DNA from: an uncultured Alphaproteobacteria bacterium
GTDB lineage: Bacteria > Pseudomonadota > Alphaproteobacteria > Bin95
NCBI GenBank assembly: GCA_938084065.1
Contig: CALKDI010000007.1
Coordinates: forward strand, 1 to 41,927
DNA length: 41,927 bases
Direction: 5' to 3'
Shown here: positions 6,658-41,927 of the stretch, piece by piece
How positions within the stretch are numbered: the first letter of the stretch is position 1
How the letters are laid out: each line of letters starts with the position of its first letter
The notes under the pieces: model-generated
Told to the model about the DNA's origin: nothing
Database searches by the model: none
The model's input: the letters and a program-made list of their open reading frames with translations, nothing else
Program-made: the position numbers and the translations under genes

Positions 6658-7206
6658 ATGGTCGACCTCGACAAATTCGTTGCCGATTGCCGCGAGGCGC
6701 TGAAGACCCGTGACCCCGCCAGTGTGGTGGAAAAATTGGTTCAGGACGTCATTGCCGACCCAGCCGCGCTGGATGCCGCGTTTGCCGCCCGGATCACCGG
6801 CACGTCGCTGCAGGATCGGATGATCTGCAATGATGAAGAGCTAACCGTGGCCCAAATTGCCGCCCCGCCGGGCCTGCGCTCGCCAGTTCACAATCACTGC
6901 ATGTGGGCGGTGATCGGCGTTTATGATGGCCAGGAGCACAATCGTTTCTTCAGCGATGCCGGTGGCGAGCCGGAGCAGATTGGCGAGCAATTGCTCAAGG
7001 TCGGCGATATCTGCCGCCTAACTGCGGATACGATCCACGCCATCCACAATCCGCTGCCGACCCGCTCTGCCGCGATCCACGTCTATGGCGGCAATCTGGT
7101 GACTCGTGAGGGCCGCAGTGTCTGGAATCCGCACTCGAACGAGCGTGAGGATTACGAGATCAACCAGCTGTCGCGCTACACGAAAGAGCTCAGCGAACTG
7201 GCTTGA
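6658..7206 (+). CDS. Cupin, cysteine-dioxygenase-like predicted metalloenzyme
   Basis: A 182-residue protein with a double-stranded beta-helix pattern: PVHNHCMWAVIGVYDGQEHNRF around 77-98, then TIHAIHNP near 125-132 and AIHVYGG near 139-145. His78, His80 and a later histidine (127, 130 or 141) could form the three-His iron site seen in cysteine and other thiol dioxygenases. The family is the predicted metal-dependent double-stranded beta-helix group, and the substrate cannot be told from sequence. A strong AAGGAG lies before the ATG. It sits between recN and ligA but has no obvious functional link to DNA repair. Sulfur-containing small molecules are possible substrates, by inference only. Confidence 0.75.
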   Translation: MVDLDKFVADCREALKTRDPASVVEKLVQDVIADPAALDAAFAARITGTSLQDRMICNDEELTVAQIAAPPGLRSPVHNHCMWAVIGVYDGQEHNRFFSDAGGEPEQIGEQLLKVGDICRLTADTIHAIHNPLPTRSAAIHVYGGNLVTREGRSVWNPHSNEREDYEINQLSRYTKELSELA

Positions 7207-9339
<2,133 letters not shown>

Positions 9340-9344
9340 ACAGC

Positions 9345-10298
9345 ATGAGCGACCACCCTGTCGACCTGGCGATGATCCAAGCGGCTGCGCGCCGGATCGA
9401 AGGCAAGGTCCGCGAGACGCCGATGCTGGACCCTGCGCCAATGCGCGGGCCCGTGTTGGATGCCGGCCGGCTGTTGCTAAAGCTGGAATGCCTGCAGGTG
9501 ACCGGCAGCTTTAAAGCGCGCGGTGCCAGTAACAAACTTTCAACTCTGGACGCGGAGGCCAGGCAGCGCGGGCTGGTGACGGCGTCCGGCGGCAATCATG
9601 GTCTAGCTGTCGCCTATGCGGCGGCCAGTGCTGGCGTGCCTGCGGCGATATTCGTGCCAGAGAGCACGCCCGCGGCTAAGGTCAAAAAATTGCGCCAATG
9701 GGGGGCAGATGTCACCGTCCATGGCAAGGTTTGGGACGAGGCACAGGAGGCAGCTCTGGCGAAGCAACAGGCTTCTGGCCAGACTTACGTCCACCCCTTC
9801 GCCGACCCGGAGGTGATTGCCGGCCAAGGCACGCTAGCGGTTGAGATCCTGCGGCAGGTGCCACATGCGGATACTCTAGTGGTGGCCATTGGTGGCGGTG
9901 GCTTGATCGCTGGCGTTGCGACAGCTGCCAAGGCCATCCGGCCCGGCATCAAGATCATTGGCGTGGAGCCGACCGGCGCGCCAACGCTCTATGAAAGTAT
10001 GCGGGCCGGCGAATTGGTAACACTGGACGAGATCACAACCGTTTCAGGCTCTCTCGCCCCCCGCCGCTCCATGCCGATCAACCTGGAACTGATTGCCGCC
10101 CACGTCGACCGTATGGTGCTGGTGTCAGACGAGGAAATGCGCCAGGCCGCAGAATGGCTGTGGTTTGAAACCGGCGTAGCAGCTGAGCTAGCCGGTGCCG
10201 CGTCTCTAGCTGCCCTGATGACGGGCCGTCACCAGCCAGAGCCAGACGAAACCGTCGTGGCTATTATCTGCGGCGCAGGGGCAGACGGGCTGAGTTAA
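9345..10298 (+). CDS. PLP-dependent threonine/serine dehydratase
   Basis: Fold-type II PLP enzyme. The PLP lysine is K57 in the motif TGSFKARG, a substrate/asparagine loop SGGNHGLAVA is at about 81-90, and the phosphate-binding glycine loop GGGG is at 183-186. At 317 residues it is the short catabolic or serine-racemase-like form, without the C-terminal ACT-like regulatory domain of biosynthetic IlvA. It would deaminate threonine or serine to 2-oxo acids, or racemise serine. The start at 9345 is supported by AGGAGG at 9329-9334, which overlaps the end of ligA. A hydroxyaspartate dehydratase is an alternative within the same family. Confidence 0.85.
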   Translation: MSDHPVDLAMIQAAARRIEGKVRETPMLDPAPMRGPVLDAGRLLLKLECLQVTGSFKARGASNKLSTLDAEARQRGLVTASGGNHGLAVAYAAASAGVPAAIFVPESTPAAKVKKLRQWGADVTVHGKVWDEAQEAALAKQQASGQTYVHPFADPEVIAGQGTLAVEILRQVPHADTLVVAIGGGGLIAGVATAAKAIRPGIKIIGVEPTGAPTLYESMRAGELVTLDEITTVSGSLAPRRSMPINLELIAAHVDRMVLVSDEEMRQAAEWLWFETGVAAELAGAASLAALMTGRHQPEPDETVVAIICGAGADGLS

Positions 10299-10300
10299 AA

Positions 10301-10326
10301 CCCGGCAGGCCGTAAAAACAGCCGGG
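10301..10326. terminator. Candidate shared terminator between convergent genes
   Basis: CCCGGC (10301-10306) and GCCGGG (10321-10326) flank a 14-nt A-rich loop in the 29-bp gap between the dehydratase and minE stops. There is no clear T run on either side. Confidence 0.4.
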
Positions 10327-10327
10327 C

Positions 10328-10618
10328 CTATAGCGCAACCCGCGTCCCGCGGCTTTCCTCTGCTGATGGCATCGGCAATTCGATCTCGATCTCGAGGGTC
10401 GAGACATCATCGCCACGGTCCAACTTCACCACTGCCTTGTTCTGATCAACCGAGACGTAGCGGGCAATCACTTCCAGCAGCTCTTTTTGCAGACGGGGCA
10501 GGAAATCATCGCCATCCCGGCTGATACGCTCATGCGCCAGCACGATTTGTAGACGGTCGCGGGCCGCTGCTGCAGATGCAGCGGGACGTTTGGCGCGAAA
10601 GAAATTCAGCAGGCTCAT
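10328..10618 (-). CDS. minE: Cell division topological specificity factor MinE
   Basis: A 96-residue MinE that displaces MinC from MinD, stimulates the MinD ATPase and drives pole-to-pole oscillation. It has an amphipathic membrane-binding N-terminus (MSLLNFFR), the MinD-contact helix region DRLQIVLAHERISR, and the dimerisation part beginning LQKELLEVIARYV. Its ATG overlaps the minD TGA as ATGA, so the two are translationally coupled and it is the last gene of minCDE. Confidence 0.97.
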   Translation of the reverse strand: MSLLNFFRAKRPAASAAAARDRLQIVLAHERISRDGDDFLPRLQKELLEVIARYVSVDQNKAVVKLDRGDDVSTLEIEIELPMPSAEESRGTRVAL

Positions 10619-11430
10619 GCGGCACCTCGGAACAAGCGGCTGAACAGGCCCTTTTTCTCGGCGACCATAAACCGATGGCTAATATCTTCACCTAGGAAGC
10701 GACCAACCGCATCAGAATAGGCTTTACCGGCGGTGGATTCTTCTTCGAGAATTACCGGAACACCCTGATTCGATGCCGACAGCACACTCTGGCTTTCCGG
10801 AATAATGCCAAGGAGTGGAATAGCCAGGATATCCTGGACGTCCTCGACCTTCAGCATTTCACCGCGTTCAACACGCCCTGCGTCGTAGCGGGTTAGCAGA
10901 AGCTGTTCCTTTACAGGAGTCCGCCCCTGCTCCGCCCGCTGCGAGCGGCTGGCCAGCACGCCCAGGATACGGTCGCTGTCACGGACGCTAGAGACTTCCG
11001 GGTTGGTGACCACAATAGCCTGGTCAGCAAAATACAAAGCCAACTGCGCGCCGCGCTCAATGCCAGCCGGGCTGTCGCAGACGATGTAGTCGAACATCTC
11101 CCGAAGTTCGTTCAGGATTTTTTCGACGCCATCCTGGGTCAGCGCGTCTTTGTCCCGCGTTTGTGATGCAGGCAGGATCGACAGGTTTTCGACCCGCTTA
11201 TCCCTAATCAGTGCTTGCTTGAGATTCGCTTCTCCCTGGATCACATTGATAATGTCGAACACCACCCGGCGTTCGCATCCCATGATCAGGTCCAAATTGC
11301 GCAGGCCGACATCGAAATCCACAACGACGGTCTTATGACCGCGCATGGCCAAGCCTGTGGCAAACGCAGCACTGGTCGTCGTCTTACCGACCCCGCCTTT
11401 GCCCGATGTTACGACGATGACTTCAGACAT
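10615..11430 (-). CDS. minD: Septum site-determining ATPase MinD
   Basis: Membrane-cycling ParA/MinD ATPase that recruits MinC and MinE. The deviant Walker A KGGVGKTT begins at residue 11, VVVDFDVGLRNLD forms the switch region, and DYIVCDSPAGIE is Walker B. The C-terminal amphipathic membrane-targeting helix, KKGLFSRLFRGAA, is intact. The length of 271 is standard. AAGGAG precedes the ATG at good spacing. It is the middle gene of minCDE, 42 bp after minC and overlapping minE. Confidence 0.98.
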   Translation of the reverse strand: MSEVIVVTSGKGGVGKTTTSAAFATGLAMRGHKTVVVDFDVGLRNLDLIMGCERRVVFDIINVIQGEANLKQALIRDKRVENLSILPASQTRDKDALTQDGVEKILNELREMFDYIVCDSPAGIERGAQLALYFADQAIVVTNPEVSSVRDSDRILGVLASRSQRAEQGRTPVKEQLLLTRYDAGRVERGEMLKVEDVQDILAIPLLGIIPESQSVLSASNQGVPVILEEESTAGKAYSDAVGRFLGEDISHRFMVAEKKGLFSRLFRGAA

Positions 11431-11472
11431 CGTGCGTTTCTCCTTAACCTCTGGTTTACGCTGCGGCCTGTC

Positions 11473-12258
11473 TCAACCGAGCGGGGTGAACCGCATTTCT
11501 TCGCCATTCAGGCTGATTTGCAGCCGCTGGCCGATCAAAGCTGGATCAACATCGTCTCGCACCCGGTACAGGCCTGCGATGGAGATCAACTCTGGATCGA
11601 AATTCAGGGCGAAGATTCTGGCTTCGTCAAAGCCAGAAGCGCCCGCAATGGCGCGACCGCGCAACGCGCCGTACACATGTACATGGCCATCGGCGATGAT
11701 TTCCGCACCAGCGTTGACGGTTGCGGTGCAAATAATGTCCCGCCCCTGTGCATAAATGCGATTGCCGGCGCGTACCGGAGTGGTGACCAGCAGCGCGGGT
11801 TGCGGTTCAACCGCAGCCGATTCGGCTTTGCCTTGGCCAGATTCAGGCTCCGCTACTGCAGCAATGGGTTCAGCAACGGTCAGCTCGGGCACCGCCGGCT
11901 CAATTTCTTCCGACACCTGCGCAGTCTTTGGCTTGAAAAGCTGCTGGCCTTTGTTCAGCTGCGAAAGGCCTGCAGCAGCTGCAGCCTGCCGCAAGCTGCC
12001 GGTCCCGCCAGTTGTCCCGACTGGAACCAACCGCAGGCTACGCAATCCTTGTGCCAAACCGGCAAAATCAGGCTGGCTACCATTTGCCGGCAGATCATCA
12101 AGCCCCAGTACTATCGGTGAATCCCGCAGAAAAGCTGGCGATTGCTGGATCAACCGCTCCAATGCTGGAACGACGATCTCTGGCGCGCCATCGCGAAGCT
12201 GCAGCACCACCATATTAAAATTGGTACCGCGGATAGCGAAAGGTTGAGGAGGCGCCAT
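11473..12258 (-). CDS. minC: Septum formation inhibitor MinC
   Basis: Inhibitor of FtsZ assembly, positioned by MinD. The 261-residue form starting at 12258 begins MAPPQPFAIRGTNFNMVVLQL, the normal MinC N-terminal domain; a longer open frame upstream to 12420 reads as Arg-rich non-protein sequence and is rejected. The N-terminal FtsZ-inhibiting domain spans about 1-105, an Ala/Glu/Pro linker follows to about 155, and the C-terminal beta-helix domain binding MinD includes VRAGNRIYAQGRDII and GALRGRAIAGA. It is the first gene of minCDE and is divergent from serC. Confidence 0.95.
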   Translation of the reverse strand: MAPPQPFAIRGTNFNMVVLQLRDGAPEIVVPALERLIQQSPAFLRDSPIVLGLDDLPANGSQPDFAGLAQGLRSLRLVPVGTTGGTGSLRQAAAAAGLSQLNKGQQLFKPKTAQVSEEIEPAVPELTVAEPIAAVAEPESGQGKAESAAVEPQPALLVTTPVRAGNRIYAQGRDIICTATVNAGAEIIADGHVHVYGALRGRAIAGASGFDEARIFALNFDPELISIAGLYRVRDDVDPALIGQRLQISLNGEEMRFTPLG

Positions 12259-32133: not shown

Positions 32134-32835
32134 TCAAGCAAAATCGGACATGTGCCGCCGTTGCAAGGACAAGTAAGTCGAATGACGGCCCGCTTCTAGG
32201 CCCTTGGTCTCAAAACGGGTTCCAGGCCAGTCATCTGGCCGCACGCGCCAATCGTCCGCGCACGCCGGGCTCCAATCAAAATCAGGGTGCCGCCGCAAGA
32301 CACGCAGCATCCACACCAGGTAATCTTGCACATCTGTTGCGACGCGCAATTCGGATCCCTGCGGCATCAATCGGCCGAGTTGATCCAGAACCTGCGTGTT
32401 AACGATTCGTCGGCGCCAATGGCGGCGTTTCGGCCATGGGTCCGGAAAAAGAACAAACGCCCGGTCGATCGAACCTGGCGCCAATTGCTCCAACAGCAGC
32501 CGAACGTCGTCATCCAGCACCCGGATATTCTGTAAGCCCTGCTCAAAAGCAGCCGCCACTAATGACGCCATGCCATTTACGAACGGCTCGACGGCGATAT
32601 AGCCAATGTCTGGGTTCTGTGCAGCTTGCCAAACCGCATGCATGCCATCGCCGGACCCAATCTCTAACCAGACCTCCCTCACGGGATGATCGAACAGAGT
32701 GAGGGGATCCAACGGTGCGGATGCTGTCAGCGGGACGCGCAAGCGTGGCAATAACTCTTGCACAGCCTGCAGGCCACGATGCCGCAGCGGCCGGCCAACG
32801 CGCCGACCGTGCAACTCACGCTTTGCGGCGATCAA
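32134..32835 (-). CDS. trmB: tRNA (guanine-N7)-methyltransferase TrmB
   Basis: SAM-dependent methyltransferase making m7G46 in tRNA. Visible motifs are [12 protein letters not shown] near the N-terminus, SAM-binding [43 protein letters not shown] and the C-terminal [11 protein letters not shown]. The only sensible start is TTG 32835, overlapping the metK TGA (TTGA), which predicts translational coupling. Placement directly after the SAM synthetase gene is common in alphaproteobacteria. Confidence 0.95.
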
Positions 32836-34013
32836 ACTGTTTTCTTCAATGCCTCGACCAAGTCCGTCCGCTCCCAGGAGAAGTGGCCTTCATCGGTCGG
32901 CTTTCGGCCAAAATGGCCGTAGGAGGAGGTCGGCACATAAATCGGGCGGTTGAGGTTCAGATGCTGACGGATGCCGCGCGGCGACAGGTCAAACAGCGTC
33001 GGCAAAATCTTTTCCAACCGCGCTTCCGTCACGCCGTCAATGATAGTGCCATGCGTATCGACATAGAGCGACAACGGCTTGGCAACGCCAATGGCATAGG
33101 CCACCTGGATCGTGCATTTGGTTGCCAGACCGGCAGCCACTACGTTCTTTGCCAGATAGCGCGTGCCGTAAGCGGCAGACCGATCAACCTTGGACGGGTC
33201 TTTGCCACTGAAAGCACCGCCACCATGCGGAGACGCGCCACCGTAAGTGTCGACAATGATCTTGCGCCCGGTCAGTCCGGCATCACTGTCTGGGCCGCCA
33301 ATAACGAATCGGCCGGTCGGGTTTACGTAGAATTCAGTCTCCGGGCACATCCAGCTATCATCCGGCAGAACACCCATGACGAACGGGCGCACAATTTCAC
33401 GCACCTCGTCAGTGCTCAGACCTTCATCGTGCTGAGTTGAGACAACGATCGACGTGGCACGAACCGGCTTGCCATCACGATATTCTAAGGTGAACTGGCT
33501 TTTGCTATCAGGACCCAAGCCTTTGATCGCGCCAGACTTGCGCGCTTCGGCCATCCCGCGCAGCACGCCGTGGCTGAAGTGAATTGGCGCCGGCATCAAA
33601 TCTTCGGTCTCGGAGCAGGCATAGCCAAACATCAAGCCTTGATCGCCAGCACCCTCATCTTTGTTGCCAGCAGAATCGACGCCCTGGGCAATATCTGCCG
33701 ACTGGCTGTGCACGCGAACATCCACCTTGGCATTCTGCCAGTGGAAATTGTCCTGATCATAGCCGATGTCGCGAATAGCCTCGCGCGCCAGCTTCTCCAT
33801 CAAAGCGTGGTCAACGCTTGCAGGCCCACGGGTCTCTCCAGCAATGCAGACATAATTGGTTGTCACCAATGTCTCGACGCCGCAACGGACAAAGTCGGCT
33901 TCGGCCGTAGACAGATACGCATCAACGATTGCATCGGACACGCGGTCACAAATCTTATCCGGATGACCTTCCGAAACCGATTCACTGGTGAACAGATAAG
34001 ACGAACGGGTCAC
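32832..34013 (-). CDS. metK: S-adenosylmethionine synthetase MetK
   Basis: Makes SAM from methionine and ATP. The 393-residue protein has the N-terminal [18 protein letters not shown], the ATP-binding [12 protein letters not shown], the P-loop-like [19 protein letters not shown], and [11 protein letters not shown]. The start is GTG 34013 with AAAGGG 7 bases upstream. It lies between an XRE regulator and trmB; the 150-bp leader holds a long imperfect hairpin. Confidence 0.98.
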
Positions 34014-34067
34014 GGGCTATCCCTTTGTCAGCAATGGTAAGGCAAGGAGCAGACTTAGATGAAGATT

Positions 34068-34129
34068 CAGGGCCTGCGTTGACGAACCGCCCTTCTGCCC
34101 AATTCCCCCGCCGTCCGTCAAGGCCCCTG
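34068..34129 (-). promoter_or_regulatory. Long imperfect hairpin in the metK leader
   Basis: CAGGGCC (34068-34074) and TTGACG (34079-34084) pair with CGTCAA (34116-34121) and GGCCCCTG (34122-34129), giving about 13 bp with a 4-nt bulge and one bulged C. It lies 55-116 bp upstream of the metK start. It could be a SAM-responsive element or simply terminate the regulator gene. No known SAM riboswitch consensus could be confirmed by eye. Confidence 0.4.
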
Positions 34130-34163
34130 CCTGCCGCACGACCAATCAAAGGCTTGGGTGCGA

Positions 34164-34613
34164 CTAGATATCTTCGCGGGGAAGACCATCCCCCATCGAC
34201 CGCATCAGGTCTAACATCCGCCGCCGAACGGCCGGATCTGGGATAGCATAATAAGCTCGCACCAGCAGCAAGGTCTCCCGCTGCGTCATTGTATCTGCCT
34301 GATAGGGGTTAGGGCTGTCTTCCGCGACGCCGTTCGTGGCGCTCTTCTGCCCATCGTCCATTTCGTCGAAGAAAAAATTGACCGGCACATCTAATGCACG
34401 CGCCAGTTGATACAAACGCCCCGCGCCAATCCGGTTGGCGCCCCGTTCATACTTTTGAACCTGCTGGAACGTCAGATCCAATGCAGAGGCTAGGCGCTCC
34501 TGGCTCAACCCCATCAACGTACGACGTTGACGTACACGGTTGCCAACATGGATATCGACCGCATTCGGCTTTCCTCTGGTTTTCCGCTGCGGTTTTCTTT
34601 CTTGAACGTCCAT
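34164..34613 (-). CDS. XRE-family transcriptional regulator upstream of metK
   Basis: A 149-residue DNA-binding protein. The HTH is VRQRRTLMGLSQERLASALD with TFQQVQKYERGANRIGAGRL, followed by LARALDVPVNFFFDEMD, a pattern common in alphaproteobacterial one-domain XRE regulators. The C-terminus (LLLVRAYYAIPDPAVRRRML) may be an oligomerisation region. An in-frame ATG at 34709 is rejected because it lies inside a likely promoter; ATG 34613 gives the family-like start MDVQERKPQRK. The target genes are unknown; metK follows 150 bp downstream. Confidence 0.88.
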   Translation of the reverse strand: MDVQERKPQRKTRGKPNAVDIHVGNRVRQRRTLMGLSQERLASALDLTFQQVQKYERGANRIGAGRLYQLARALDVPVNFFFDEMDDGQKSATNGVAEDSPNPYQADTMTQRETLLLVRAYYAIPDPAVRRRMLDLMRSMGDGLPREDI

Positions 34614-34694
34614 CAACTCAAAATCCCCTGGATTTTCTCTTGCGTTTTTTTTTTCGCGCGTCCGGGTCACCAAAACACGCCGCTCATCCCAAAT

Positions 34695-34722
34695 AATATA
34701 TGCATACATCTGTATGGGTCAA
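34695..34722 (-). promoter_or_regulatory. Promoter and possible operator of the XRE regulator
   Basis: On the minus strand -35 TTGACC (34722-34717) and -10 TATATT (34700-34695) are 16 bp apart. The spacer contains ATACA-GA-TGTAT, a short dyad (34705-34716) that could be an autoregulatory site. Confidence 0.5.
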
Positions 34723-35823: not shown

Positions 35824-36888
35824 TCATCGATGATCAGCGGCAACCGCCGCCTGTACCGAGGCAAAGCCTCCCGCAGCCAGCAAATCAGCCAGTTCAGCCT
35901 CCACTCGCGCAATAACCTGCGGGCCTTGATATACCATAGCGGTATACAGCTGTAGCAGAGAAGCACCGGCTCGAATTTTGGCATACGCGGACGCACCGCT
36001 GTCTATCCCACCAGCACCAACAATAAAACCGCCGCCGCTGGCCTGCCAGACCAGCCGGACCAGATCGGTTGAGCGCTCGAACACAGGCGGCCCACTCAAG
36101 CCACCAACCTCGCGCGCGCCTGGACTTTGCAATGTCGCCGGCCGTGCAATCGTTGTGTTGCTGACGATCCAGCCATCGACCGCCCCGGTCTTGGTCAATT
36201 GCTCCACGAGACTAGCGGCGGCGGCATCTGACAGATCCGGCGCCAACTTAACCATCAGGCTGCACCGCGAATTCGCCAGGTCTCGAGCATCACGGGCAGC
36301 CTCGACGATCGCTCTTAGACTTTCTTCCTGCTGCAAATCACGCAGCCCCGCTGTGTTGGGTGACGAGACGTTGACGGTGACAAAATCCGCATTGGCAGCG
36401 AATGCCTGCACACCCGCGGCATAGTCGCCTTGAGGGTCAGTGCTATCCTTGTTGACCCCTAGGTTCACCCCGACAACCCCACCGGCCAGCCGCGAATAGC
36501 GCCGAAACAGCCGCAAACGCTCGGCAACGACGGCATGGCCTTCGCTGTTAAAGCCAAAGCGGTTGATAACCGCCTGGTCCTTGGTCAGGCGAAACAGACG
36601 GGGCTTGGGATTGCCGGGTTGTGGTTTGGGCGTCACCGCACCGATTTCGATGAAGCTGGCCCCCATTCGCAACAATGGCGCTATCGCCTCACCGCCTTTA
36701 TCAAGCCCCGCGGCGACGCCGAGTGGCGAGGTCAGTTCGCGTCCAAACCCCTGTGTTGCGAGGATCCGAGGCGGCGGCGGCAAGGTCGGCGCGAGCCCCA
36801 GCGCCAGGGCCTTAACCGCCAAGCGGTGCGCCGTTTCCGGATCAGCCAGCCGCATGACGCGCATCGCCCAATCGTTGAAATAGCTCAT
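35824..36888 (-). CDS. pyrD: Dihydroorotate dehydrogenase (quinone), class 2
   Basis: Membrane-associated FMN enzyme oxidising dihydroorotate to orotate in pyrimidine synthesis, passing electrons to quinone. The N-terminal amphipathic helices (DPETAHRLAVKALALG) are the class 2 quinone tunnel. FMN and substrate motifs are SPLGVAAGLDKGGEA, INRFGFNSEG and NVSSPNTAGLRDLQ with the class 2 catalytic serine at about 175. ATG 36888 is preferred over a GTG at 36897 by family length (354 residues). Phage-derived genes begin immediately upstream at 36932. Confidence 0.97.
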   Translation of the reverse strand: MSYFNDWAMRVMRLADPETAHRLAVKALALGLAPTLPPPPRILATQGFGRELTSPLGVAAGLDKGGEAIAPLLRMGASFIEIGAVTPKPQPGNPKPRLFRLTKDQAVINRFGFNSEGHAVVAERLRLFRRYSRLAGGVVGVNLGVNKDSTDPQGDYAAGVQAFAANADFVTVNVSSPNTAGLRDLQQEESLRAIVEAARDARDLANSRCSLMVKLAPDLSDAAAASLVEQLTKTGAVDGWIVSNTTIARPATLQSPGAREVGGLSGPPVFERSTDLVRLVWQASGGGFIVGAGGIDSGASAYAKIRAGASLLQLYTAMVYQGPQVIARVEAELADLLAAGGFASVQAAVAADHR

Positions 36889-36931
36889 CAACACCACGCC
36901 AGATTGTCAGTTGGAGAGTGGCTAAGGTTTA

Positions 36932-37381
36932 TCAGCCTCCCTTCATCCCGTCCAAGGTTCGCGGCGCCGCAGCATAAAACACAATCTCACCGATCTGGAC
37001 CAAGGGCTTGGTCCCCCGTGCCCAATCAGGCATATCGCCCATCCGATGGAACGCGGACGCGCCTAGGCTCGGGTCTGGAATGCTGCCAGCCAAAGCCCGG
37101 CGCGCAGTGCGAATCGCCATGGTGTGGCTCGCGCTCCCGACCAGCGGCAGGCGCACTGGGTGGGCGCTATCCGCCAGCACCGCGTCGGCGACGATCTGCA
37201 TGCGGTTGCCCGCTCGGGCAAGAACGCACGCCACGCCTTCCATCGCCCGGACATTGCCATCCAGCACAATGGCATCCAGCAGACTGCCCAAATGCTCTGT
37301 CGGGCTCTGCCGTGCGTGTGCAAGCAAAACCGTTTGGCCATACTGATCTTTGGCCGGCTGCAAGGTTGCTGCCAGGGTCAT
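36932..37381 (-). CDS. Cell-wall-hydrolase-like (SleB-type) protein, putative endolysin
   Basis: A 149-residue protein with features of SleB/Hydrolase_2 cell-wall hydrolases: an N-terminal helix LLDAIVLDGNVRAMEGVACVLA comparable to the catalytic Glu helix, and a C-terminal block DPSLGASAFHRMGDMPDWARG ... QIGEIVFY resembling the GATHFH...P.W...IG.H.FY pattern. The expected catalytic glutamate may be E53 (RAMEGV). AAGGA precedes the ATG. It is 25 bp after terminase and is the last gene before pyrD. In phages this would be the lysin; the match is weak, so an uncharacterised phage protein is possible. Confidence 0.6.
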   Translation of the reverse strand: MTLAATLQPAKDQYGQTVLLAHARQSPTEHLGSLLDAIVLDGNVRAMEGVACVLARAGNRMQIVADAVLADSAHPVRLPLVGSASHTMAIRTARRALAGSIPDPSLGASAFHRMGDMPDWARGTKPLVQIGEIVFYAAAPRTLDGMKGG

Positions 37382-37406
37382 ATCGTAATCCTTCAGTTAG
37401 AGTGGG

Positions 37407-38879
37407 TTAGATAGAAAAGTCCGTGTTGGCTTGAACGACACCGCGACCGCGCCAATCGGCGGTGCGGGGGGCGGGTGGTTGGGTCGATAGGCGAACTGGG
37501 GTGGCTGCGATGGCACCGGCGACAGCATCCAAACCATCGTCACGCTGATTCACGCCCGGTCGCCATTCCCGCATTTCCCGGCGGAATGGCGTCTCCAGCA
37601 CACTGCGGTGAGCGTGCAGCAGCCGCGCGGCCAGCGGCACCTCCAGCGCTTGCAGAATGCGCTGATCTTTGTTCTGCCGCGCGTTCGCACTCTGCACGCT
37701 GATGCCTAGGCGCGCGCGGGCCAGCGCCTGACGCAGCAATCCGGGCAAGAAAGCGCCGATGCCATTGGTCTCAATAGTGATCGACGGCAGGTGTAGATGG
37801 GCCGCCAGGCGCGCCACCTCGTGGCATTGTTGACTGGCGGGGTCGAGGCCTGCCGCCTCATCCACCTGCAGATAGGCGACGCGATGCAGCCAGAGGCCAC
37901 CGTCCGCATCGACAAACACGGCTGCAACCACACTGCTATCGCCGCGTCCGACCCGACCAAACGCCGGGTCCCACCAGGCGCTGACTCCGATCATTTGGGT
38001 CTGACCGATCGATAGAATGTGACGCCCATTGCGTTCGATCAGCTCCAGATCATCGTCATAGTCCTGGATCTGATCGGGATCGAAGCGGGTAGCGCTGGGA
38101 GCCGTCGGATGCAGCAGCATCTGGCTGGCAAAGGCTGAAGGGCCGATACGCGCCCTCATCGTGGCGATAGCATCCGGCGGAAACCGCTCCGGCCAGACGC
38201 TGTCACCCTTCGCGGTTAGGATCGGCAATACACATCGTCGGAAACCATCGAGATACGGGGTCTCCTCTCCCACTTCTGCCCGTGCCTGGCGGGCATAAAT
38301 TGAGTAATAGGTGTGCGGCGTGCCGGCATAGATCTGGATGCCGTCTGGAGACACGATATGCTCAATCTCTGCCAACCGATCCCGCAGCCAGGCGCGACGG
38401 GAGGCGGTGCTGGCAGTGTTGGGCACCTCCACGTCATCACAGATCACGGTGTCGGCGTGCGCACCGGTGATGTTGGCGCCGATACCACGGGCCAACAGGG
38501 ACGGATCGCGCCAGGCTGCCTGCCTGGCGACCGTGAACGCATCGTCCGTCCACATCCCCGCCCCTTTGCCGCGCAAAGCCGCGCAAAGCGGATGCCGCTC
38601 GACCACCTGGCGGGCATAACGGCTGAGCTTGGTCGCCAATGCCTGCTCCGCCGCCAGCACCAGGATGCGATGGTCAGGGTCGCGGTACAGCAACCATGCC
38701 GCCATCAACCCCAGCAGAGTGGATTTCCCGCAATTGCGGAAGGCCAGCAGCAGCAATCGCTGCTCGCCCTCCGATAGCTGGCGCGCGATCCAGCAGACTA
38801 GTCGGCGATGGACCGCTGGCGTGGTCTGGCCCTGCCAGCGTTGCCAGAGCAAAGCGAATTCTGGAAAGGATACGGTCAT
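37407..38879 (-). CDS. Phage terminase large subunit
   Basis: The ATP-driven DNA packaging motor with nuclease. The 490-residue protein has a divergent Walker A AFRNCGKST at 46-54, Walker B TVICDDVE with D148/D149, and a coupling-motif region GTPHTYYSIY near 186-195. The RNase H-like nuclease domain shows acidic residues D304 (AWWDPAFG), a middle ETNGIGAFLPGLL segment, and D448/D451 (DGLDAVAGA). All catalytic positions look intact, so it is not an obvious relic. Its ATG overlaps the upstream TGA (ATGA), predicting coupling to the small helical gene. Confidence 0.9.
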   Translation of the reverse strand: MTVSFPEFALLWQRWQGQTTPAVHRRLVCWIARQLSEGEQRLLLLAFRNCGKSTLLGLMAAWLLYRDPDHRILVLAAEQALATKLSRYARQVVERHPLCAALRGKGAGMWTDDAFTVARQAAWRDPSLLARGIGANITGAHADTVICDDVEVPNTASTASRRAWLRDRLAEIEHIVSPDGIQIYAGTPHTYYSIYARQARAEVGEETPYLDGFRRCVLPILTAKGDSVWPERFPPDAIATMRARIGPSAFASQMLLHPTAPSATRFDPDQIQDYDDDLELIERNGRHILSIGQTQMIGVSAWWDPAFGRVGRGDSSVVAAVFVDADGGLWLHRVAYLQVDEAAGLDPASQQCHEVARLAAHLHLPSITIETNGIGAFLPGLLRQALARARLGISVQSANARQNKDQRILQALEVPLAARLLHAHRSVLETPFRREMREWRPGVNQRDDGLDAVAGAIAATPVRLSTQPPAPRTADWRGRGVVQANTDFSI

Positions 38880-39223
38880 AGTTCCTCCCCTTCATCCACG
38901 CCCTCGCCGGCAGCCAAATCGCGCCGCACATCCGCCAACAGCAGAGACAGATCAGCCGCCCCCTGCCCCGGCTGTTCCGCCAAATGCGCGTGCACCAGGT
39001 CATGCAGGCGAATGAGCGACTGCAGATGGGCGAGCGAGGCCTTGCGCGCGTTTTCCCAGGCGGTAACCTCTCGCGGGCCATCGTCATCACCAGAATCCGC
39101 CTGCAACAGGCGGCGGTAGGACGCGAACTGCGCTTCCAACAACGCGGGCAATCGTTCGGCCAGAGTTGACCAGGGTAGCGGTGATTGATCCGTTGAGTGG
39201 TTGTCCGAACGATCGTCTGCCAT
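38876..39223 (-). CDS. Small helical protein coupled to terminase (possible small subunit)
   Basis: A 115-residue acidic, mostly alpha-helical protein (TLAERLPALLEAQFASYRRLLQ, ARKASLAHLQSLIRLHDLVHAHL read as helices). Position directly before, and overlapping, the terminase large subunit gene suggests a small terminase subunit or packaging accessory. No helix-turn-helix DNA-binding motif is clear, so the assignment rests on context. Confidence 0.55.
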   Translation of the reverse strand: MADDRSDNHSTDQSPLPWSTLAERLPALLEAQFASYRRLLQADSGDDDGPREVTAWENARKASLAHLQSLIRLHDLVHAHLAEQPGQGAADLSLLLADVRRDLAAGEGVDEGEEL

Positions 39224-39229
39224 GAGCCC

Positions 39230-39541
39230 CTACACCGGGTCGCTGGGCTGCTCGGACGTTTGTGGCGGCAGCAGTTGCAGCTGCTCACCCGCGGCAACGA
39301 CACAACTGGTGCCGGACGGCAACGACGCCAGCAGCGTCCAACTGCCACCCGGCCCCATCCACAGCTCCATCACCTGCCCAGTGTCGGCAAGGCCAAGAGC
39401 GACCTGGTTCTCGCTATGGCGGGCGCTGAGTTGCTCAACAATGCCAGCTCGCGGCCCACACGGCGTCGGCGCAGACTTAGCTGCGCCGGCCATCGCTATG
39501 CTGCACGCGGCCAGGGCCAAGGTTCGTGTTATTTTGGTCAT
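39230..39541 (-). CDS. Small secreted protein of the phage-derived group
   Basis: A 103-residue protein with a signal peptide (MTKITRTLALAACSIAMAGA, cleavage near AKSA). The mature part has two Cys and a predicted beta-rich stretch (NQVALGLADTGQVMELWMGP). ATG 39541 is supported by AAGGAG at spacing 9; its reading frame overlaps the end of the neighbouring gene slightly upstream. No family was recognised. Confidence 0.6.
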   Translation of the reverse strand: MTKITRTLALAACSIAMAGAAKSAPTPCGPRAGIVEQLSARHSENQVALGLADTGQVMELWMGPGGSWTLLASLPSGTSCVVAAGEQLQLLPPQTSEQPSDPV

Positions 39542-39560
39542 GGTCACCGGCTCCTTCCCT

Positions 39561-40175
39561 CTAGGCCGCACGCGCAGCGCAAAACGCGCCCAGTTGTGAG
39601 CGGATCACCAAGAAGTCCTGCGCCATGCCCGACAAAAGGCTCAGCCGTAGCAGCACTGGCTGTCCAGCTGCGATACCAGCCGCGGGGCCAGCAGCATCTG
39701 CCAGAGCGGCCTGATAGGCCAGCGCCGCCGACTCCATCGCCCCACCGGAATTCGCTGCAGCCCGCATTTGGTCCAACGCCTGCTCCAGCGCCGTCGGAGG
39801 GACTGCCGGATAACGGGCCAGCACCCGCGCCGTCAGCAATTCAGCCCGATACACCCGGCTGGCAGGCCCGCAATCGGAGCCCAACAAAGCATCAGCGGCC
39901 TTGTCGCCAAGCGCGGCGCAGGCGCTAACCAAAAGCCCCAACGCCAAAGCTGCCGCCATGGTCCACGCCGGCATGCTCGCCTTGACAGGTGTTTTGGTCA
40001 CGGTCGCACCAGCGGTCGGGGTGTGTTCGATATTTGGCACCAGCCAAACAACTCCGGCGGTCAGAACCACTCCTAACGCCTGCTCGAGATCCGGCTCGAA
40101 CGGCACAAACGCAGCGACGAGCTGAACCAGTGCCTGAGCGACAGCTGCCGCCCAAGCTTTGTTGTTTTTCATCAT
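39561..40175 (-). CDS. Holin-like membrane protein joined to a lipoprotein-like domain
   Basis: The N-terminal 50 residues contain two hydrophobic segments (about 8-25 and 33-48) with a short charged turn, as in small phage holins. After a Thr/Lys linker, residues 68-86 (MPAWTMAAALALGLLVSAC) look like a complete lipoprotein signal peptide with lipobox VSAC and Cys86, followed by a helical Ala-rich domain. Met68 (39974) has an AAGG 5 bases upstream, so a second, shorter lipoprotein may be made from the same frame. The first start is one of two adjacent ATGs (40175 or 40172) with AAGG upstream. Function in lysis is inferred. Confidence 0.6.
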   Translation of the reverse strand: MMKNNKAWAAAVAQALVQLVAAFVPFEPDLEQALGVVLTAGVVWLVPNIEHTPTAGATVTKTPVKASMPAWTMAAALALGLLVSACAALGDKAADALLGSDCGPASRVYRAELLTARVLARYPAVPPTALEQALDQMRAAANSGGAMESAALAYQAALADAAGPAAGIAAGQPVLLRLSLLSGMAQDFLVIRSQLGAFCAARAA

Positions 40176-40191
40176 GACGTTGCCTTTTTGT

Positions 40192-40443
40192 TCATATAAA
40201 CATTGAACGCGTGAGCAAGCTGGTCATCAGGCCCAGCATGCTGACGATCAGCAGCCCCAGGACGCTGACGATCCAGCGCCAGATTGAGGCAAGGCGGGTG
40301 TTAATCCGCTCTGTCTGACGCTCTATCTGGTCCATGAAGGCCCGAAGATTGGCGCTACGCTCCTCGCAGTGCCGCTCATGGGAATCCAGACGAGCGGTGA
40401 TTTCGGCGATGCGCTCCCGCGCGTCGGTATCGATATCTGCCAT
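40192..40443 (-). CDS. Coiled-coil membrane-anchored small protein (XhlA-like)
   Basis: An 83-residue protein with an N-terminal charged heptad-rich helix (ARERIAEITARLDSHERH, then LRAFMDQIERQTERINTRL) and one C-terminal transmembrane helix (IVSVLGLLIVSMLGLMTSLL, about 54-74). The layout resembles XhlA-type lysis accessory proteins and similar phage membrane proteins. It lies 4 bp after the SGNH gene and 16 bp before the holin-like gene. The family is not certain. Confidence 0.6.
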   Translation of the reverse strand: MADIDTDARERIAEITARLDSHERHCEERSANLRAFMDQIERQTERINTRLASIWRWIVSVLGLLIVSMLGLMTSLLTRSMFI

Positions 40444-40447
40444 GCCG

Positions 40448-41927
40448 CTACGACAATTTCTCAACGGTCAACAAGCGGCCCGGCACCCGGCTTTCCAGGG
40501 TGTGCCCTCCGCCTTCGGCCATCCATTGCAGTCGGAAGGTGTTGCTGCCCGCAGCCAGCGTCACCGGCACCTGCGCCATAGAGATCACCGTCCCGCGCGT
40601 GTCGGTCGGCGGCAAGTATTGCAGCGTCTCTGCAATCGCCGCGCCGTTCAGCGTCACCTGGGCCAGGTTCGCGTTGCTGACCGGCGATTGGTTCCCAACG
40701 TGCAAGGAGAAACTCAACAACGCCTGGTCGCCAGCTTCGCCTTGTACCGCCACCTCCTCCGCCAGGTCGGTAAAGCTGGTCGCGGTCGTCGAAACCGTCC
40801 CCGATCCGTGATCGCTGGCCACTACCCGCGGTTTCGGCAGCGTTCGCAACAGGGTCAGGAATGCGCCAAAGGCTGGCGCATAGATCAGGTAATGACCCAC
40901 CGTGCTCGGATGGTTCAGGCCATTGCCACCAGCGCTATCTGGGTTGCTGCCCCAGTCACCCAACCCCAGTAGATCGTCCTCATGCAGCAGCGGACGGGCA
41001 TAGCGGGCCGGATAACCAACCTTCAGCGTGCAACCTATCTGCGCAGCGCCGACCCCGCCCAGGTAGACCCGATAGGCGCAACCGCCATCGGCCAGGCGCG
41101 AATAGTCGATGGTATCGATCTTCAACGTGCCGTTGATCCAGACCCGATGCCGGGCTCCATCGCAGCGCACCCGCACATAGTTATCTGCTCCAACCGTCGG
41201 CGCGGTATCGACCACGTGCGCCACAGACGTGGCCTTCCAATAGATCCGGACGTTCACGCCAGACCATTGTAACTCGTACCGCTCACTCGGCGTGTCCGCA
41301 TCGACGCGGTAGTTGAACGCCAAAACGTCGCCGCTCTGCGCGGGGCGGAAGGTCAAGTACGCTTGGAAATCGGCAGCATTTAGCTTGCGTCGGGGCCGGG
41401 CGACACCGGTAAACACAAGCCGCCCAGAGGTCAGGTTAACGCCACCTGCACTGCCCTCAATTGTATCCCACCAATTGGTGCCGAAGGCGCGGAACGCATC
41501 CTCGCGGAACCAGCGACGACGGCCTTCATCCACACCATCACGCAGGAAATGGTAGACGCGGTTGGCGTCCAACAGAGGCAGCCGGTTCGCCACCGCGAAG
41601 TCGCGCAACACACGATACCGGCTGTCCAACGCGGTTTGCTGCACCTTAAAAGTTGGATCCAGCCGGGTGGGCAGGAAGGTGGTTGCCAATGCTACCGTCG
41701 GCGGCGCTGCCCAGGTCTTGGTGTAGTCATGGAAGCTCTGAACCGCAGTGGCGTACGCCTGATCCGCCATAGTGAAGTTGTTCATGCCGTGCGCCCAAAC
41801 CACCAGATGCGGCGCGGCATCCTCCACATGCTGCCGCCAGGACACACCCAACTGCGAACCATCAGGCCAAGCAACAGAGGGAAATCCAGTCGGCTGCACC
41901 CGATAAAACCCCAGGTCCCGATCGCCT
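40448..41927 (-). CDS. SGNH-hydrolase-like phage protein with inserted beta domain (5' end outside window)
   Basis: The frame is open to the window edge; residues upstream of the first in-window GTG (41899) read naturally (GDRDLGFYR), so the gene probably continues. An SGNH block-III-like VVWAHGMNNF lies near residue 33-42 and a block-V-like GLNHPSTVGH near residue 325, where His would complete the triad; the Ser-containing block I would lie off the window. Between them, about residues 150-290 form a beta-rich region (SGRLVFTGVARP, HRVWINGTLKIDTIDY) like a carbohydrate- or LamG-type jelly roll. The C-terminal 110 residues are another beta domain. Such enzymes in phages act on host surface glycans or capsule esters. 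Confidence 0.65.
   Translation of the reverse strand, partial: GDRDLGFYRVQPTGFPSVAWPDGSQLGVSWRQHVEDAAPHLVVWAHGMNNFTMADQAYATAVQSFHDYTKTWAAPPTVALATTFLPTRLDPTFKVQQTALDSRYRVLRDFAVANRLPLLDANRVYHFLRDGVDEGRRRWFREDAFRAFGTNWWDTIEGSAGGVNLTSGRLVFTGVARPRRKLNAADFQAYLTFRPAQSGDVLAFNYRVDADTPSERYELQWSGVNVRIYWKATSVAHVVDTAPTVGADNYVRVRCDGARHRVWINGTLKIDTIDYSRLADGGCAYRVYLGGVGAAQIGCTLKVGYPARYARPLLHEDDLLGLGDWGSNPDSAGGNGLNHPSTVGHYLIYAPAFGAFLTLLRTLPKPRVVASDHGSGTVSTTATSFTDLAEEVAVQGEAGDQALLSFSLHVGNQSPVSNANLAQVTLNGAAIAETLQYLPPTDTRGTVISMAQVPVTLAAGSNTFRLQWMAEGGGHTLESRVPGRLLTVEKLS

Follow-up and report, generated by a model that had tools for sequence, protein, structure and literature searches.

Complete particle module at the contig end

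The window analysed here is the complete contig CALKDI010000007.1 (41,927 nucleotides, designated C7) of the 399-contig assembly GCA_938084065.1 from an uncultured Alphaproteobacteria bacterium. Genomes are labelled G (G000 is that of the window), loci or contig stretches L, contigs C, and families f. The right end of the window contains, on the minus strand, genes for a T7-type large terminase subunit, a lysin-like protein, and pyrD, preceded by small lysis-type genes and a tail-spike gene (Table 1). An earlier note had described this arrangement from the sequence. The order of terminase, lysin-like gene, and pyrD is confirmed by matches to phrog_38, NF033889, and PF01180 and by a sub-threshold match to PF07486, and the lysis-type and surface-hydrolase genes upstream of the terminase correspond to a weakly XhlA/holin-like 90-aa open reading frame (ORF) and an SGNH/GDSL protein (PF13472). 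The same note recorded the absence of portal and capsid genes, which is an artefact of the contig end. The window stops at position 41927 within the tail-spike gene, and extension to the right into contig C187 of the same genome supplies genes for the portal, scaffold, capsid, and tail.

The two contigs are connected by L021, an IMG/VR contig with a terminase identical to that of the window, which spans the contig break. Positions 1-6952 of L021 correspond to G000:C187 at 99.87%, and positions 6953-11473 to positions 41927-37407 of the window at 99.98%. Because the alignment of L021 runs straight from one contig into the other, C187 and C7 abut exactly, with no base between them. C187 carries the genes for the portal, scaffold, capsid, and tail tubes. 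The complete SGNH gene, read in L021 6291-8432, encodes 713 aa, and the full-length protein matches PF13472 with an E-value of 8.4e-8.

The joined module is ~14.9 kb long (14,864 bases over both contigs, from the 3' end of the regulator up to and including the lysin-like ORF). After the divergently oriented regulator, the order of transcription is genes for 131-, 128-, and 98-aa proteins, portal, an 84-aa Bbp19-like protein, scaffold, capsid, a 79-aa protein, tail tube A, tail tube B, a small internal virion protein, a fibre N-terminus, and the SGNH spike, followed by the small lysis-type genes, the 115-aa ORF, terminase, the lysin-like ORF, and pyrD. The terminase scores 382 bits against the NCBIfam model termin_lrg_T7 (NF033889; cut-off 150) and keeps all columns that are invariant in a 14-row alignment, including RxxGKS, CDDVEVP, WDP, and DDxxDA. 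The 115-aa ORF is a candidate small terminase subunit based on its position, and a comparable small ORF lies just upstream of the terminase in several relatives. The earlier note expected the portal gene to follow that of the terminase. T7-type phages do not fit this expectation: their terminase gene is the last of the late genes, and the position of the terminase in the module is therefore not odd.

No integrase or replication gene is present among the ORFs of the window's module. A prophage with an integrase, which the earlier note had considered as a possible outcome of extension, was not encountered: the PF00589 integrase matches listed for G000, five of eight, include none on C7 or C187. 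The gene set fits that of a gene transfer agent (GTA), with head, tail, and packaging genes and without genes for self-replication or integration, and it lacks the integrase and replication genes beside structural genes that characterize a T7-like temperate prophage.

Table 1 Features of the window end and of the adjoining part of the module on contig C187
Feature	Position	Strand	Basis
pyrD, chromosomal flank of the module	35824..36897	-	PF01180, E 1.3e-71
Lysin-like ORF, 149 aa	36932..37381	-	PF07486 (cell-wall hydrolase), second half of the family only, 21.1 bits, below the cut-off of 27
Terminase large subunit, T7 type, 490 aa	37407..38879	-	phrog_38, E 2.7e-76; NF033889
115-aa ORF, 4-base overlap with the terminase start	38876..39223	-	phrog_31793 (function unknown), E 1e-4
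113-aa conserved small protein, signal-peptide-like N-terminus	39230..39571	-	phrog_25396 (function unknown), E 3.9e-17
204-aa protein, hydrophobic N-terminus	39561..40175	-	ORF; holin/spanin-like by position only; no family in a Pfam search
90-aa coiled-coil protein with one hydrophobic stretch, XhlA/holin-like (weak lysis accessory)	40192..40464	-	phrog_1193 'hemolysin', E 8.5e-4; phrog_689 holin, E 5e-3; PF10779, E 0.02
SGNH/GDSL tail-spike-like gene, 3' part	40448..41927	-	frame open up to the contig edge, where it is cut
S24/LexA-like regulator, 209 aa	L050 9239-9868 (C187 side)	opposite to module	PF00717, E 8e-22; weak helix-turn-helix matches
Portal, 506 aa	C187		PF12236, E 7e-132
Scaffold, T7 type, 245 aa	C187		PF05396
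Major capsid protein, 272 aa	C187		PF19821, E 7e-83
Tail tube A			phrog_394
Tail tube B			phrog_376
Small internal virion protein			phrog_418

Distribution of the module

Of 95 relatives searched, 22 have a terminase match, which is weak in two of them; the strong matches are surrounded by the gene order of the module. A scan of genome contigs with the window's terminase as a single sequence gave no match; the scan with the 14-row terminase alignment gave at least 545 confirmed stretches. Neighbourhoods were counted in the best 80 of these loci and in 20 loci from related genomes (L026 and L087 come from one genome, as do L045 and L048). The best 80 include loci of Magnetospirillum, Azospirillum, Skermanella, Terasakiella, Elioraea, and Micavibrio, with the same gene order where the contig is long enough. 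Exceptions include L085, in which capsid and tail genes follow the terminase. The scan of IMG/VR yielded 359 confirmed stretches, the best 80 of which come from contigs of 6.4-25.6 kb apart from one of 37.2 kb. IMG/VR lists these modules (L131-L209) as viruses, and both L021 and L131 are cut precisely at the stop codon of the terminase, which looks like provirus trimming.

The frequency of the module was determined in an even sample of 387 alphaproteobacterial genomes, in which at most six capsid and four terminase candidates were scored per genome. Because so few candidates were scored, the numbers of misses are upper bounds on absence. The capsid profile splits the sample cleanly: 62 genomes from 30 families score above 390 bits, with one strong copy each. 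They are followed by the broken or partial capsids of G028 (368 bits) and G350 (222 bits), and then by phage capsids below 160 bits. The terminase is also found in 57 of the 62 capsid carriers, in 51 of them on the same contig and always on the same strand (51/51). It lies downstream of the capsid gene in 49 of these 51 (median gap 5.45 kb); in the other two, G419 and G204, it precedes the capsid gene. There are 64 genomes with the terminase, seven of them outside the 62: strong matches in G005, G028, G142, and G350, in which the capsid is missing, broken, or partial, and partial matches in G214, G307, and G321. No paper on this module was found among the Creative Commons-licensed articles of PMC, a scope that leaves out subscription papers and preprints.

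Chromosomal site between the regulator and pyrD

The gene pyrD is co-directional with the terminase and at most 6.5 kb from it in 21 of the 100 loci, two of which (L026 and L087) belong to the same genome. In the class sample, terminase and pyrD share a contig in 31 genomes, with pyrD directly downstream in 18, within 20 kb in another arrangement in three, and far away in ten. At its other end, the module adjoins the divergent S24 regulator wherever the sequence reaches it.

The same site can be recognized in genomes that do not carry the module. Relatives of the regulator were sought, at an E-value threshold of 1e-20, in 40 module-less genomes with GTA_TIM, the marker of RcGTA-like gene transfer agents, and in 40 others, the latter chosen by hand rather than at random. 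They are present in 23 of the former and seven of the latter (Fisher P 4e-4). In 22 of these 30 genomes (18/23 with GTA_TIM and 4/7 others), the regulator is divergent from pyrD and within 3 kb of it, at a distance of 417-683 bases in 18 of the 22. A DUF952 gene (PF06108) lies between the two genes in 16/22, and a gene for class-I lysyl-tRNA synthetase (PF01921) is on the other side of the regulator, also in 16/22. Eight genomes lack this arrangement: the stretches examined in G001, G083, G213, G418, G056, G292, and G076 contain no match to pyrD, and in G027 pyrD is 3.6 kb from the regulator, beyond the 3-kb limit. Judged from these sequences, the gap between regulator and pyrD in the module-less genomes is the place of the module, left empty.

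Inheritance and selection

Concatenated sequences of the capsid, the two tail tubes, and the terminase from 40 genomes were compared with NusA using FastTree trees; G003, G005, G011, and G015 had been dropped because they contained too few of the markers. The patristic distances of the module and of NusA correlate with a Mantel r of 0.936, or 0.831 without three long branches, and none of 2000 permutations reached as high a value. The two trees share 19 of 37 splits. When a 39-taxon version, without the window's genome, was relabelled at random, 0.26 splits were shared on average and never more than 4.

The genes of the module are under purifying selection. Ratios of non-synonymous to synonymous substitution rates (dN/dS) are 0.02-0.46 over all computable pairs (14 pairs, up to six genes each, with some saturated dS values excluded). 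Between the window and L131, the terminases of which are 75% identical, they range from 0.06 for the capsid to 0.18 for the terminase. Rooting a capsid tree with Pelagibacter phage HTVC035P places phage Hodr outside a single group made up of the chromosomal capsids and one faecal fragment.

Regulator and small proteins at the start of the module

The S24 protein of the window's genome fits the description of RogA as a protein of about 210 aa with helix-turn-helix and S24/LexA-like parts, conserved in Alphaproteobacteria and co-occurring with RcGTA. It keeps the motifs GDSM and AKEL, which we take to be the LexA-type Ser and Lys motifs of cleavable repressors. A search with the regulator gave only a weak match to UmuD. 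RogA is a 213-aa LexA-like protein that represses the activators of the Caulobacter GTA and is widespread in Alphaproteobacteria; it is reported to lack the residues for LexA cleavage (PMC9632790). In a comparison with the published description of RogA (Caulobacter CCNA_00080), size and genome distribution fit, whereas the cleavage motifs differ. A search for palindromic operators found no shared inverted repeat in 12 intergenic stretches between the S24 and 131-aa genes.

The predicted structure of a relative of the 131-aa protein (L116) is all-helical, with a predicted local distance difference test score (pLDDT) of 78. The top five VIA-align rows for this model are all phage 21 Q antiterminator, with Z of 6.1-7.6, and the next row has 4.7. 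Two points speak against the likeness to Q21: Z values under about 13 in VIA-align may reflect an arrangement common in helical proteins, and the resemblance is not significant in Foldseek (E 4.2). The profile of the 131-aa family gave no match to PDB sequences. The GafZ protein of Caulobacter is an antiterminator, but its authors did not see any resemblance between its structure and those of known antiterminators (PMC11150451). That the 131-aa protein is an antiterminator with a role comparable to that of GafZ is an attractive but unproven idea prompted by the model.

The 128-aa family has an invariant His and Cys, and the model of one relative has a pLDDT of 91. The best VIA-align row is a cysteine peptidase, with Z of 5.7, and Foldseek gave no significant match for the family. 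It is possible but unproven that the 128-aa protein is a cysteine peptidase with a permuted papain-like fold.

Relation to known gene transfer agents and phages

The particle genes of the module differ from those of RcGTA-like GTAs (Rhodogtaviriformidae) of Rhodobacter and Caulobacter. GTA_TIM is present in 40 of the 387 genomes (18 families), and no capsid carrier is among these 40 (hypergeometric P 6e-4, not corrected for phylogeny). Family f94 has members of both kinds, and its GTA_TIM match is weak (G138, 33 bits). The window's genome contains no GTA_TIM match and, by this marker, does not carry an RcGTA-like cluster. RcGTA-like GTAs resemble the module in being chromosomal clusters for a tailed-phage particle of similar size (14 kb in Caulobacter, PMC11150451), in their mainly vertical inheritance in Alphaproteobacteria, and in the control of the Caulobacter activators by the S24/LexA-like RogA (PMC9632790). 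In contrast, the window's module has a portal, scaffold, capsid, and tail tubes of podovirus families and a T7-type terminase. It also occupies a different site: in G022, for example, GTA_TIM is ~0.52 Mb from the S24-pyrD locus. A table of a published RcGTA survey gives no RcGTA-like cluster for Acetobacterales, Azospirillales, and Rhodospirillales (PMC6821227).

The FpGTA of Faecalibacterium is likewise a predicted podovirus-like GTA-type particle. However, its host is outside Alphaproteobacteria, it has two loci, and its encapsidated host DNA has been measured (PMC12946183). Among phages, the HTVC035P-type and Hodr podophages of Pelagibacter have head and portal proteins of the same families, the capsid and portal of Hodr being 50% and 35% identical, and HTVC035P has annotated tail tubes A and B, as does the module. 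They differ from it in being phages of 34-36 kb; in HTVC035P, moreover, the terminase precedes the portal, and there are large internal virion proteins.

Particles with ~10 kb of random host DNA are reported to be released by Azospirillum lipoferum strains and by Azospirillum sp. B510; they were called GTAs and tentatively assigned to an RcGTA-like gene stretch (PMC3899980). The genus also carries at least the capsid-to-terminase part of the module (L090). There is no scaffold or portal match in the 3.2 kb examined upstream of the L090 capsid, and the portal is truncated in G064, which pairs with the genome of L090 in both the module and NusA trees. The module is therefore a weak candidate for the source of the Azospirillum particles.

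Interpretation

It appears moderately probable, from gene content and comparative data, that the terminase is part of a domesticated and complete particle module of podovirus (T7) type, most likely a GTA with particle genes unlike those of RcGTA. The earlier note had offered three guesses: a rearranged prophage, a satellite, or a divergent GTA-like module with an intact motor. The last of these is best supported. It is favoured by the complete set of particle and packaging genes, the lack of an integrase or replication gene in this copy, the wide distribution with one strong copy per genome, the distances that largely track those of the hosts, purifying selection, and the precise empty site in relatives. 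The other two guesses fall because both rested on the artefactual absence of capsid and portal genes, and they were dropped once C187 had provided the portal, scaffold, capsid, and tail genes.

In such a GTA, the S24 regulator would repress the divergent promoter, and the repression could be relieved by DNA damage, since the LexA-type Ser and Lys motifs are kept. The operon would then be read, perhaps with the all-helical 131-aa protein acting as a Q21-like antiterminator. Procapsids would form, and since the module lacks a replicon that could be packaged preferentially, the terminase would package chromosomal DNA. The lysis genes would burst a minority of the cells, and the short-tailed particles released would bind neighbouring cells through the fibre and spike and inject the DNA.

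Several observations weigh against this GTA reading and are set out here together with the alternatives on which they bear. The loci could be ordinary T7-like prophages or their remnants, acquired independently, with a gene order shared through one temperate phage group. This appears unlikely, although the gene families are indeed phage families. Six pairs of splits with support of at least 0.95 conflict between the module and NusA trees, and NusA joins the window's genome to G007 and G013 of its own family, which the module tree does not; transfer or replacement has therefore also occurred. Many loci are away from pyrD: among 69 with at least 4.5 kb of downstream sequence, pyrD is placed as in the window in 19, arranged otherwise in two, and absent from 48. 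Two broken copies have integrase genes next to them. In G028, the run of S24, 131-, 128-, and 98-aa genes, portal, and scaffold on contig C9 ends at capsid codon 205, and an integrase match is found in a 382-aa ORF that starts ~80 bases after the broken capsid (L317 6898-8742). The module resumes on the separate contig C14 at capsid codons 202-272 (L024 10960-11172) and continues through the terminase to pyrD; the two capsid pieces share no direct repeat of at least 15 bases. In G064, the portal is matched up to residue 293, with an integrase match 0.9 kb beyond (L318 4706-8650), the capsid-to-pyrD part (L032 4191-16677) is ~57-70 kb from the portal part, and no scaffold match is present in the stretches examined. 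We infer that integrating elements or rearrangements broke the module in these two genomes; in G028, the capsid gene itself seems to have been the landing site of an integrating element. Against the prophage reading, the window's module has no integrase or replication gene. A scan of 19 carrier genomes with PF00589 gave no match anywhere in G075, and in G053, where ~9.8 kb separates scaffold from capsid, the nearest of the matches listed is ~490 kb from the terminase. The exact placement between S24 and pyrD, the single strong capsid in each of 62 genomes, and the host-tracking distances also argue against independent prophages, and among 2,324 phage records with a terminase match the best-ranked 30 are 25-31% identical.

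Somewhat less likely again is a domesticated particle with another role, such as killing or self-lysis, or a slowly decaying relic. The 149-aa ORF of the window is probably a degenerate Hydrolase_2 lysin: PF07486 is covered in full by a relative's protein that matches it, and the motif [WYF][GS]EA with its conserved Glu, kept in 40 of the 45 relatives that are 140 aa or longer, is lost in the window's copy. Relative to C187 (L050), L021 has a nonsense change in the capsid gene (L021 1996) and a 5-bp deletion in tail tube B (L021 3541), which represent either strain decay or assembly error. The earlier note had named decay of neighbouring structural genes as a counter-indication; those of the window's genome are open, apart from this lysin. 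Even if the element is functional elsewhere, it may be on its way out of the window's lineage. Stop codons interrupt four of the 57 terminase matches (G228 C18, G135 C17, and G371 C13 (f91), and G296 C64), and the broken copies of G028 and G064 also fit a relic. Five of the 62 capsid carriers lack a terminase match and may contain something else: G029 and, from family f82, G303, G094, G224, and G429, in which there may be another element or the terminase may have been replaced. The window's module has no counterparts to the large internal proteins of HTVC035P, which leaves DNA delivery unexplained. On the other hand, the ATPase and nuclease blocks of the terminase are invariant in the 14 rows, dN/dS is as low for the terminase as for the capsid, and an empty particle needs no packaging motor. 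A phage satellite that parasitises a helper is very improbable. The small size of the module and its lack of replication genes would suit one, but satellites largely borrow their head, tail, and packaging genes, whereas this module has a full set of its own and no integrase in this copy.

The terminase module may be an unrecognised machine that moves bacterial DNA between cells. If host DNA is packaged, it would be an independently domesticated podovirus-type GTA that is old in Alphaproteobacteria. It fills part of the gap in the RcGTA survey, since its capsid occurs in 30 families and never together with the RcGTA marker among the 387 genomes. We regard as possible but doubtful a further proposal: that the S24 protein is RogA and was originally the repressor of the podovirus-type module, that an ancestor of many Alphaproteobacteria had the module between lysS-S24 and DUF952-pyrD, and that the RcGTA lineages lost the module but kept the repressor, recruiting it to silence an unrelated second GTA. 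If this were true, Alphaproteobacteria would have domesticated two unrelated viruses as GTAs, in different lineages, under one inherited switch. Packaging of host DNA by the module would, in turn, make it testable whether RogA-type repression of GTAs goes back to a different domesticated virus, by what means short-tailed particles could deliver DNA when large ejection proteins are lacking, and what the source of the ~10-kb Azospirillum particles is. The counting of such modules as viruses in IMG/VR is a warning.

Other observations on the loci

The terminase is split in the four genomes of family f69 (~0.9 Mb) that have a match, with the ATPase and nuclease halves ~3.4 kb apart (L041 8800-13577, G217 C2, G362 C5, and G422 C3). 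In L041, the gap between the halves contains genes for a DnaB-type helicase and a helix-turn-helix protein, and a 224-aa ORF on the opposite strand. The f91 terminases contain one TAA each and that of G296 three stops, which could reflect decay or, in f91, an unusual code. In favour of the GTA reading, the protein after the terminase in the relative L105 belongs to the Pfam family GTA_holin_3TM, and its cluster spans 37 loci; a Pfam search gave no match to this family in the window's module. Beyond pyrD, the trio of trmB, metK, and a helix-turn-helix gene (window 32134-34709) recurs ~6 kb past the terminase of Magnetospirillum sp. SS-4 (L056 17488-19581), which hints at a shared older neighbourhood. 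The record titles of L057, L066, and L092 (Mesoflavibacter, Stygiobacter, and Asaia bogorensis) look at odds with their Magnetospirillum- or Telmatospirillum-like module genes, and these assemblies are possibly mislabelled.

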